NCBI GenBank assembly: GCA_030592345.1
Contig: JAUVJO010000005.1
Span: 1-33,086, forward strand
Reading direction: 5' to 3'
Origin: Deltaproteobacteria bacterium
GTDB taxonomy: Bacteria > Desulfobacterota > Desulfobacteria > Desulfobacterales > C00003060
Length of the DNA: 33,086 nucleotides
Shown here piece by piece: positions 6,407-32,721 of this stretch. The notes below the pieces were generated by a model. The model had not been told where the DNA came from, did not search any database, and saw only the letters and a list, made by a program, of their open reading frames with translations. The translations under genes were made by a program, and so were the position numbers. The stretch's first letter is position 1. Every line of letters starts with the position of its first letter.

Positions 6407-6543
6407 TATAGATTTCCAGATAAACAATTTCACTGCGTTATCGCTCGAAATCCTCGACAATGTACTCCCATGTACGCCTTACTCGGATTTCTCCCTCTGG
6501 TCCCGCTGAAAGCGGGATGAAATTATTTATCTGAAAATCTATA
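6407..6543. repeat. Palindromic element, diverged relative of the 105-bp MITE-like family
   Basis: Ends TATAGATTTCCAGATAAACAATTTCA / rc TATAGATTTTCAGATAAATAATTTCA (24/26). Shares CACYGCGTTATCG and CTCCCTCTGG with the other copies. Confidence 0.75.
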
Positions 6544-11604: not shown

Positions 11605-11811
11605 ACCTGGGTTGAGCGGTTCAGCGTTCAAAGTTCCGGGTTGAAACGCCCTAACTGGCTGTCATCAAAAGGAAAATAGGTTGATAGGTGCAAATGCCAT
11701 GTTTCACCCAATGGGTGAAAGAGGCTAATCTGAATCATGCCTCAAGCGCCATGAATAAAGTTAAGGATATCAGCAGACTATAACCTTTGAATCTTGAACC
11801 CTGAACCGCTC
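11605..11811. repeat. ~200-bp intergenic repeat with inverted ends, copy 1
   Basis: GAGCGGTTCAGcGTTCAA left (11614), CTTGAACCCTGAACCGCTC right (to 11811). Body tgcaaatg...ggtgaaagaggctaatctgaatcatRcctcaagcgcc is shared with copy 2 at 17843. Confidence 0.85.
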
Positions 11812-11896
11812 ATTTTAGGTGAAAGTTCAAGGCTGAAAGCTCAAAGCTGAAACAATCATAGAGGCATTTCTTTCCTCCCCTTTGGGCTTTCAGCTT

Positions 11897-12775
11897 TCAC
11901 TCCACAGGGACCATTGTCGGGTCCTTGATCGCATCAACCAGTTCTACGGTCAGCTTTGTCCGTCTCACATCATGGACCCGTACTATATGGGCACCGCTTA
12001 GAACAGCAGCAGCGACTGCAGCCTGTGTACCCGCTTCACGACACTCGTCTTCCGGACCCAATATTTTAATGATAAAGGATTTTCGTGAAGGCCCAATCAG
12101 GACGGGAACACCGAGGGCTTGGAACGCTGAAAGGTGTTTGATAAGAAGTAAGTTATGAGTGAGTGTTTTCCCAAAACCGAGACCAGGATCCACAATAATC
12201 TTTGTACGGTCAATACCCGCGTGTTCTGCCATTTGAATGGCATCTGCCAAAAAGCTTTTCACCTCTCCAACCACGTCTTCATAACGGGGATCGATCTGCA
12301 TGGCCTTTGGTGTCCCCTTCATGTGCATCAAGATAACCGGCACATCTGCCTCAGCCACCACGCCCGCCATGGCCGGATCAAGCTTGAGGGCCCCAATATC
12401 ATTGACTATGGAAGCGCCGGCTGAAATGGCATGGCCTGCCACTTCGGCCTTACTGGTGTCAATGGATATTGGAACCGAAAGGCGGGTGGAAAGTTCTTCA
12501 ATCACGGCAACGACACGGCGAATCTCCTCTTGTGCTGGTACCGACCCTGAAAATGGGCGCGATGATTCCCCTCCTACATCAATGATATCAGCCCCCTCTG
12601 CTGCCAGGGCTTCGCCGTGGGCAATGGCCTTTTCCTTGTCAAAAAAGAGACCGCCGTCTGAAAATGAATCGGGCGTCACATTCAGGACGCCCATGATTAA
12701 GGTACGTTTGCCTATGGTCAGCCAAAAGGGACCGCATTGAAGCTTGAATACCGATGCCTTGTCCATTCGGCTCAA
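11897..12775 (-). CDS. folP: Dihydropteroate synthase FolP
   Basis: [47 protein letters not shown]. Confidence 0.95.
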
Positions 12776-17842: not shown

Positions 17843-18090
17843 ACCCGGGTTGAGCGGTTCAGCGTTCAAGGTTCAGGGTTGAAACGCCCTAATCCCGCTA
17901 AAAAGCGGGATCATCAAGAAAAAACGTTGATAAGTGCAAATGTCATTTATCACCCTATGGGTGAAAGAGGCTAATCTGAATCATACCTCAAGCGCCACGA
18001 ATAGGTTCAGGATATCAGTAGACTATAACCTTTGAACCCCTGAACCCCTGAACGATTGAACCCGTGAACGATTGAACCCGTGAACGGTTA
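17843..18090. repeat. ~200-bp intergenic repeat with inverted ends, copy 2, extended by TGAACCC array
   Basis: cccgggttgagcggttcagcgttcaaggttcagggttgaaacgccctaa ... tcaccctatgggtgaaagaggctaatctgaatcatacctcaagcgcc ... aacctttgaacccctgaacccctgaacgattgaacccgtgaacg. Confidence 0.85.
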
Positions 18091-18237
18091 CGAATACTTA
18101 TGCCTTGCACCATCGCAGTCTGGATAGCCCCTTTTGTCCGACCCCCCTTGACAAATGCTCCTGAGGTTCTTATTTTCTTTTCAAATTTTAAGTAGATACA
18201 AAAAGCAACAAGATCAACTCTATATCTGGAGATCACT

Positions 18238-20886: not shown

Positions 20887-20991
20887 TATAGACTTTCACA
20901 TATTTAATTTCACCGCGTTATCGGTCGTCGGCGTATTACAATACAGCCTCCTCCCTCTGGCCTTGTGAAGTTTAATATGTGAAAGTCTACA
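20887..20991. mobile_element. MITE-like 105-bp palindromic element, copy B
   Basis: TATAGACTTTCACATATTTAATTTCAC...GTGAAGTTTAATATGTGAAAGTCTACA, core GCGTTATCGGTCGTCGGCGTATTACAATACAGCCTCCTCCCTCTGGCCTT. Confidence 0.85.
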
Positions 20992-25802: not shown

Positions 25803-25907
25803 TATAGACTTTCTCATATTAAATTTCACAGCGTTATCGGTCGTCGGCGTATTGCAATACAGCCTCCTCCCTCTGGCCTTGTGAAATTTAATATGTGAAA
25901 GTCTATA
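25803..25907. mobile_element. MITE-like element, copy C
   Basis: TATAGACTTTCTCATATTAAATTTCAC...GTGAAATTTAATATGTGAAAGTCTATA. Confidence 0.88.
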
Positions 25908-26752: not shown

Positions 26753-26850
26753 TATAGACTTTCACATATTTAATTTCACCGCGTTATCGGTCGTCGGCGT
26801 ATTACAATACAGCCTCCTCCGCCTTGTGAATTTAATATGTGAAAGTCTAT
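26753..26850. mobile_element. MITE-like element, copy D (short internal deletion)
   Basis: As copy B, but CCTCCTCCCTCTGGCCTTG is CCTCCTCCGCCTTG. Confidence 0.85.
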
Positions 26851-28882: not shown

Positions 28883-28945
28883 AGCAAATCAAGGCCCCAT
28901 ACTGGTTGTTATACCTCGAAAGGCCACAAATAACGATTTTTCGCT

Positions 28946-29173
28946 GGCCATGAACACCAATAGCTGTGTTGCTCAGGCTTGCAATAACCAGCTATAGATT
29001 TCCACATATTAAATTTCACCGTGTTATCGGTCGTCGGCGTATTACAATACAGCCTCCTCCCTCTGGCCTTGTGAAATTTAATATGTGAAAGTCTATGTTC
29101 TGCGCCTTCGCGCCTTGCTCTTGATGCTCATTGCTCACCGAAAAAACGCAATTTGCAACCTTCCGAGGTATAG
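28946..29173. repeat. Intergenic repeat interrupted by MITE (paired with 1-126)
   Basis: Flanks match window positions 1-126 with the MITE between them. Confidence 0.85.
28993..29096. mobile_element. MITE-like element, copy E (with apparent unoccupied site at 44-58)
   Basis: TATAGATTTCCACATATTAAATTTCAC...GTGAAATTTAATATGTGAAAGTCTAT. Confidence 0.88.
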
Positions 29174-29464: not shown

Positions 29465-29569
29465 TATAGACTTTCACATATTAAATTTCACTGCGTTATC
29501 GGTCGTCGGCGTATTACAATACAGCCTCCTCCCTCTGGCCTTGCGAAATTTAATATGTGAAAGTCTATA
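29465..29569. mobile_element. MITE-like element, copy F
   Basis: TATAGACTTTCACATATTAAATTTCAC...GCGAAATTTAATATGTGAAAGTCTATA; 25 terminal bases pair perfectly. Confidence 0.88.
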
Positions 29570-31296: not shown

Positions 31297-32721
31297 CTAA
31301 TCTGCTCGACGGACCAAAGCAAGCAAGATTACGCATCCAAGAGCAAACGCAAGGTTAACGATTGGCATTGCAAAGCCGGGACGATTTGAGCCATAAGACG
31401 CCTTTCCGGAGCCGGGTGCGGCAGTAGCGATGAAGCAGCTTCCTCCTCCGTCATCCGACGATGACGGCTTCTCCTGATTCACATGGATACGTACCGTATC
31501 TGTATCTGTCATGTGTTCATTGTCGGTGACTGTCAACTCAAAGTCGAGGGCTTCGCCTTCAACACCAACCTCGGGCGCAGCAAAAGTCGGCCTTGACGAT
31601 GTGTCGTCAGACAACCATACAGAAGTGCCGGCGGTTTGAGTCCAGCTACAGGACTGAATTAAACCGGAAGACCCAGAGGCATCCAGAGTAACTGTAGCTC
31701 CTTTATCAACCCACTGGTCAGGGCCTGCATTTGCTTTGAGTTGGGATGTGTCAACGACACGGATAAGTACTGTATCTTTATCTGTCGTTTCGCTGTCGCT
31801 GACTGTCAACTCAAAGGTGAGCACTTCTCCTTCAATACCAACCTCGGGCGCAACAAAAGTCGGCTTTGGCGATGTAGTGTCAGACAAGCCCACAGGAGTG
31901 CCGGCGGTCTGGGTCCAGCTATAGGACTCAATATCTCCGGAAGACCGGGAACCGTCCAAAGTAACGGAAGTTACTTCATAGATGACCTGATCAGGCCCGG
32001 CATTGGCTCTGAATTGCGATAAATCCAAGACACGGATATATGCAGTATCGGTGTCCGTTATCTGTACTGTATTCCACACAGGGGGGCCGACGGTCACTGC
32101 GAAGTAGGTGACCGTTAACTGAAAGGCGAGGACTTCGCCTTTGGCCCCAACCTCGGGAGCTGTAAAAGTCGGCCTTGGTACTGTGGGGTCAGACAACCAC
32201 ACAGAAGTGCCGGCGGTCTGAGTCCAGCTATAGGACTGAATGTCACCGAAAAACCCGGAGCCCCCTAGAGTTACGGCAGCTCCTTCATAGACCTCCTGAT
32301 CAGGCCCGGCATCGGCTTCGAGTTGAGGCTCATTTGAGACACGGATGCTTACTGTATCGGTGTCTGTCCGGTCTGCAGAGTCGGTGACTGTTAGCTCAAA
32401 AGTAAGGACTTCTCCTTCGGCATCCACTTCAGGAGCCCCAAAAGCCGGCCTTTGTGATTCAGAGTTGGACAACTGTACAGGACTGCCGGCGGTCTGAGTC
32501 CAGCTATAGAACAGTCCTTCACCGGAAGACCCGGAGGCATCCAAGATAACGGTGGTTCCTTCATTAAGCCCCTGGTCAGGCCCGGCATCGGCTGTCGGTC
32601 CTGTTACGGATGGTGTGGTTTCACCTGAGGATGCCAGTGCGACTGCTGGAAGGAGAACCAATGCCATTAAACCTATAAACGCTAACATTTTGCTTTTCAT
32701 AAGACCCTCGTTGTGCAACAT
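31297..32721 (-). CDS. Secreted PKD/REJ-like tandem-repeat protein with CFIATAA-type C-terminal signal
   Basis: Signal peptide; four repeats of AxAGPDQ...VTLDxSxSSG...YSWTQTAGxxVxLSD...PTFxAPEVGxxGEVLxFELTVTD; GGGSCFIATAAPGSG + TM + RR tail. Start may be 32700 (MKSKMLAF). Confidence 0.85.
   Translation of the reverse strand: MLHNEGLMKSKMLAFIGLMALVLLPAVALASSGETTPSVTGPTADAGPDQGLNEGTTVILDASGSSGEGLFYSWTQTAGSPVQLSNSESQRPAFGAPEVDAEGEVLTFELTVTDSADRTDTDTVSIRVSNEPQLEADAGPDQEVYEGAAVTLGGSGFFGDIQSYSWTQTAGTSVWLSDPTVPRPTFTAPEVGAKGEVLAFQLTVTYFAVTVGPPVWNTVQITDTDTAYIRVLDLSQFRANAGPDQVIYEVTSVTLDGSRSSGDIESYSWTQTAGTPVGLSDTTSPKPTFVAPEVGIEGEVLTFELTVSDSETTDKDTVLIRVVDTSQLKANAGPDQWVDKGATVTLDASGSSGLIQSCSWTQTAGTSVWLSDDTSSRPTFAAPEVGVEGEALDFELTVTDNEHMTDTDTVRIHVNQEKPSSSDDGGGSCFIATAAPGSGKASYGSNRPGFAMPIVNLAFALGCVILLALVRRAD

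Follow-up and report, generated by a model that had tools for sequence, protein, structure and literature searches.

Nested insertion of TA-targeting MITEs in a Desulfobacterales genome: MITE-A within MITE-B and its multi-copy composites

Among the closest described systems is the Correia element or NEMIS (CREE) of Neisseria, with a length of about 107 or 155 bp, terminal inverted repeats of 24-26 bp, TA ends and a target duplication, which is present in more than 100 copies per genome (PMC2229807, PMC10969869). In Streptococcus pneumoniae, RUP is 107 bp long, inserts at TA and reaches about 108 copies (PMC2229807, PMC3049150). Its ends match those of a resident helper, IS630-Spn1 (PMC2229807), and BOX, RUP and SPRITE are reported to insert into each other (PMC3049150, PMC10969869, PMC2229807). 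In addition, the Chunjie MITE of Geobacter uraniireducens is intergenic, measures 178-235 bp and has tens of copies (PMC10969869), and a dsrA-intron MITE family of Candidatus Thiomargarita nelsonii presents TATAG ends and a long hairpin, with no parental IS found (PMC4853749).

Here we analyzed a stretch of 33,086 nucleotides (the window), which is the whole of contig C14 (G000:C14) of a Desulfobacterales MAG of 3.26 Mb in 444 contigs, and whose position 1 is a contig end. The features located in it are collected in Table 1. A sequence-only reading of this DNA had pointed out two copies of a repeat, one filled and one unoccupied, and the pair proved to be real: both copies are as described, with 94% identity over the left 50 nt and 91-92% over the right 80 nt. 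At the junctions, the sequence is CAGC-TA-TAGATTTCC...GAAAGTCTA-TG-TTCTGCGCC in the filled copy and CAGC-TA-TTCCGCGCC in the empty one, with its single TA at 48-49. The claim built on this pair, that a MITE (here MITE-A, or A) had inserted at a TA with duplication of the TA, was supported by the alignment of multiple filled and empty copies, by a second, independent pair at locus L161 and by the same-genus genome G002. Furthermore, the 24 right junctions of A in its host found genome-wide read TATA in 16 cases and TATG in 8; the 16 TATA junctions show that the target duplication is TA. The two bases in which the earlier reading saw an ambiguity of the right junction are accounted for in this way: TG is the mutated second TA. 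The host had been taken for an intergenic repeat of about 126 bp starting at 28946. It is a repeat, but it corresponds to a TA-flanked mobile element of 157 nt (MITE-B, or B), which extends, flanking TAs included, from 28910 to 29172; likewise, the copy assigned to 1-126 is unoccupied but incomplete, its left arm being cut by the contig end.

Table 1. Mobile repeats and target duplications located in the window
Feature	Position	Strand	Basis or remark
Unoccupied MITE-B, left arm lost to contig end	1..123 (copy 1-125)	+	empty target TA at 48-49
Family D, TA-ended hairpin element related to A	6407..6543	+	26-nt arms 92% complementary; core GCGTTATCG common with A
Empty copy, third repeat family	11638..11744	-	TA at 11685-11686; filled by MITE-A at L161
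Second empty copy, third repeat family	17876..17990	-	TA at 17931-17932
Free MITE-A, right TA = CA	20889..20989	+	sequence match
Free MITE-A, TA/TA	25805..25905	+	sequence match
Free MITE-A, shortened to 95 nt	26755..26849	+	sequence match
Left TA flanking MITE-B (target duplication)	28910..28911	.	sequence
MITE-B split by MITE-A	28912..29170	+	imperfect terminal inverted repeats TACCTCG.../...CGAGGTA
Left TA target duplication of MITE-A	28993..28994	.	comparison with empty sites
MITE-A insert, 101 nt	28995..29095	+	26-nt terminal inverted repeats; same 101 nt elsewhere in genome
Right target duplication of MITE-A, TA decayed to TG	29096..29097	.	TG common to 8 composites, all with B1 right arm
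Right TA flanking MITE-B (target duplication)	29171..29172	.	sequence
Free MITE-A, TA on both sides	29467..29567	+	371 nt downstream of nested A

The arms of the nested MITE-A (28994-29019 and 29071-29096, one base of the target duplication included) are 92% complementary over 26 nt, and a long, strong hairpin is predicted for the element (z about -8.6). No ORF of at least 100 aa was found over the copies at 28910-29172 and 29465-29569. The terminal pattern of A gave 254+254 matches genome-wide and 0+0 with the reversed control, which excludes chance, and the copy number in the source genome is about 250. In 37 copies sampled in contig order, TA/TA flanks were present nearly always and the mean pairwise identity was 96%; when 84 distinct copies were considered, 71 had TA on both sides and most of the others were one base off. 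Since the 101-nt sequence with TA flanks occurs at many unrelated sites, A is no part of B but a unit of its own. A preference for TAG to the right of A, suggested by a first sample, was discarded: the query itself ended in TAG, which in part produced the effect, and the copies sampled in contig order presented only a mild TAG excess on that side.

The distribution of A is patchy: other genomes of the same genus nearly lack it, and some families elsewhere in the order have it in abundance, which possibly reflects horizontal spread. The search of a plasmid collection with A gave no match, and the search of Rfam returned only matches far below the gathering scores. Relatives of A with 75-95% identity were observed in G059, G053, G045, G057 and G036, all from other families of the order, and the matches in G059 and G061 are identical. 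Within the source genome, the TA-ended hairpin families D (Table 1) and C (L110:180-285) have the core GCGTTATCGGTCGTC in common with A and differ in their inverted repeats; A adjoins C in L171 and L178, and D in L038, in each case at a terminal TA. Elsewhere in the window (31511-32643), a 275-nt repeat is present in four tandem copies inside the gene of a predicted secreted protein (31297-32721, minus strand).

The host repeat measures 157 nt in uninterrupted full-length copies, plus the TA duplication, and its terminal inverted repeat is imperfect (37 nt, 78% complementary). TA or a one-base variant bounds each side in nearly all of 28 uninterrupted full-length and 7 filled copies, located at different loci, and therefore B is itself a MITE. 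Its own insertion is proved by L018 (G000:C397:1343-1503): here B interrupts an A copy at GGCGTAT-TA-CAATACAG, and the TA is duplicated. No other B-in-A case was found genome-wide. Both A and B are short and noncoding, with terminal inverted repeats and a target duplication visible from filled and empty sites; high copy number with near-identical copies was observed in the A data. Two subfamilies, B1 and B2, are well separated on the B tree, and loci L007 and L106 are B1/B2 chimeras, which indicates that B copies recombine.

Regarding which state came first, 85 B left arms could be scored, 18 filled and 67 empty. Every filled one carries A at the same TA, and no A-in-B junction at any other TA of B was found among the loci examined, while the empty sites hold exactly one TA and no footprint. 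In G002 there were 124 first-look B candidates and no match to A; the 14 best B matches scored all run full length (160-161 nt), and all 13 readable central sites are empty. The presence of uninterrupted B in a genome with no detectable A indicates that the empty state is ancestral. In the opposite order, A would be an ancestral part of B, and each empty copy, the one at 1-126 included, would have lost it by precise deletion; for the copy at 1-126, the sequence-only reading had named this as the outcome that would overturn it. Such an order could account for the filled copies in both B subfamilies and for the base change A86C, which is common to composites of both subfamilies and did not occur in any of the 37 free A copies sampled. 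However, B is uninterrupted in G002, A has the same ends at many unrelated loci, and the empty sites keep a single TA with no footprint; the shared A86C is explained by recombination, as in the chimeras L007 and L106. With A standing free at unrelated sites and about 79% of the B left arms empty, the deletion of an ancestral A is already largely refuted and we consider it very improbable.

Insertion of A was also looked for systematically: both flanks of each A copy were joined by one TA, and the resulting sequence was searched. This test found the second A host, L161, which belongs to a third repeat family and presents an exact TA duplication. The third repeat is long and intergenic, contains GAACC-type stretches in tandem and occupies 11605-11899 and 17843-18106 in the window. 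When the orthologous empty site upstream of radA was looked for in same-genus genomes, only the coding part could be aligned, the intergenic part having diverged so far that the site is unreadable.

The MAG is fragmented, with many contig ends inside A or B, and for this reason the assembly could have created some chimeric junctions, especially in five half-composites: in L100 and L103, B-left plus A is followed by unrelated sequence exactly at the A end, and in L113, L114 and L122, unrelated sequence is followed by A plus B-right. Such structures would result from any of three processes: chimeric assembly, mixed-end transposition or crossing over between A copies. The same contig ends, and the precise coincidence of the half-composite junctions with A ends, could be taken as a sign that the filled copies in general were created by the metagenome assembler when joining A and B repeats. 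This is very improbable: around the window copy, a single contig contains the two B arms and the two outer TAs, the subfamily features on the left match those on the right, and at least 7 complete composites exist, each with its own point changes.

Where the right half of a composite is visible (25 cases), the outer flanks all differ, and an outer TA is present in 24. The TG right junction shared by eight composites, all with a B1 right arm, indicates that at least that composite probably spread as a unit. Since the TG is derived and shared, and the composite exists in multiple copies, the one at 28910-29172 probably does not represent a fresh insertion. Filled copies fall in both subfamilies of the B tree, at least three changes are forced, and a single origin is rejected (AU p ~1e-59). 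The many independent insertions read from this tree were downgraded after the B1/B2 chimeras and the shared A86C were found, since recombination of B and a change shared across subfamilies make the tree test unsafe.

It can be proposed that A inserted into B only once, and that the other filled B copies arose by amplification of the composite and by recombination or gene conversion among B copies. In line with this, TG is common to eight loci, B1/B2 chimeras exist, every A-in-B junction among the examined loci is on one TA, and A86C, a change that none of the 37 sampled free A copies has, is present in B1 and B2 composites and in L098 (G000:C440). On the other hand, L098 carries A in the same TA in opposite orientation; as it shares A86C with the other composites, it may have arisen by internal inversion and not by an insertion of its own. 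L022 and L097 also speak against a single event: in them a consensus A, free of composite-specific changes, occupies a B haplotype that is characterized by CCTGCTA and a short right arm and that is unfilled in its siblings L006 and L019, and they constitute the cleanest separate A insertion. The rejection of one origin on the tree points in the same direction, weakened by recombination. A single insertion is possible but not the reading that we favor; at least two separate insertions of A into B are likely, their number being blurred by recombination between the B subfamilies.

Another aspect to mention is whether the near-palindrome AATAGC-CNG-GCTATT turns the central TA of B into a true hot spot for insertion of A. 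At least 25 composites on one TA and in both orientations, with none at other B TAs in the loci examined, argue for it, as does the G after the TA in the reverse-orientation case, which is also found in many free A copies. However, assuming about 250 A and 110 B copies, chance alone predicts between 0.2 (all TAs) and 1.0 (intergenic TAs only) hits at this TA, and P for two or more chance hits is 0.02-0.28, so that two or three separate insertions are no proof of a hot spot; moreover, L098 shares A86C and could be an internal inversion. We retain the hot spot as a tentative proposal. A broader scheme, in which the nested composite amplifies as its own unit, the inner B TA is a preferred landing site of A, and the mutually nesting families share an enzyme and can exchange ends, appears unlikely.

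As a whole, we have high confidence in an explanation in which MITE-A is a non-autonomous cut-and-paste-type DNA transposon of 101 nt whose insertion into the 157-nt, TA-targeting MITE-B used the TA of the central GCTATT and duplicated it, as seen in the filled/empty alignment. One composite, marked by the change of TA to TG in the right duplicate, would then have reached at least 8 loci, for which transposition via the B ends is the simplest route, and the other composites would derive from further A insertions at the same TA and from recombination between B copies. A transposase, probably of the IS630/Tc1-mariner kind in view of the TA target, would act in trans on the terminal inverted repeats. 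A TA duplication, terminal inverted repeats and a hairpin fit mobilization in trans by a transposase of this type, for which RUP and IS630-Spn1 offer a comparison (PMC2229807), and TA target duplication is what was found here. Neither an IS630 transposase (PF13358) nor an IS5/IS427-type DUF4096 transposase (PF13340) was found in the source genome; PF13340 copies occur in G045 and G053. Among the IS630-type loci of the 14 genomes searched with PF13358, no A or B terminal repeats were present at the loci of relatives. We did not file A and B as IS630-derived MITEs, as their ends match no IS630-family element of their own genome or of relatives; an origin from the IS5/IS427 group would likewise lack its DUF4096 transposase, which was not found in the host genome. 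Given that no resident transposase was found and that the IS630 genes of relatives lack A or B ends, current mobility is unproven; the mobilizing enzyme was lost, was missed in the fragmented assembly or is of another kind. The ends by which a helper element would be recognized are TATAGACTTTCACATATT or TATACCTCGAAAGG.

The exact ends and the TA duplication are now fixed for two abundant, apparently undescribed MITE families of Desulfobacterales; literature searches returned no report of MITE-A or MITE-B. About 250 copies of A and 85-160 of B interrupt the assembly of this MAG at many contig ends, and both families therefore matter for the assembly and annotation of such sediment bacteria. Furthermore, a single genome yields a rare layered record of the order of the elements and of which composite copied itself.

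In comparison with known systems, the insertion of a MITE into a MITE is basically a familiar kind of event. A and B resemble the Correia element in size, inverted-repeat length, TA ends, target duplication and copy number, a likeness that is structural only; unlike it, two dissimilar families nest mutually and the filled composites are multi-copy. By structural analogy they can also be placed with RUP, as short elements that insert at TA, are abundant and nest in each other, but no helper was found in the source genome, and the repeated use of one exact site, observed in A and B, is not among the features given for the pneumococcal repeats in the cited passages. Set side by side from their descriptions, Chunjie is also a MITE of the old Deltaproteobacteria, but longer (178-235 bp), and the family of Thiomargarita nelsonii is similar in its ends, its hairpin and the lack of a parental IS, but gammaproteobacterial. 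By this analogy, A and B would be new MITE families of the known Correia/RUP-like kind, with a well-documented nested composite.
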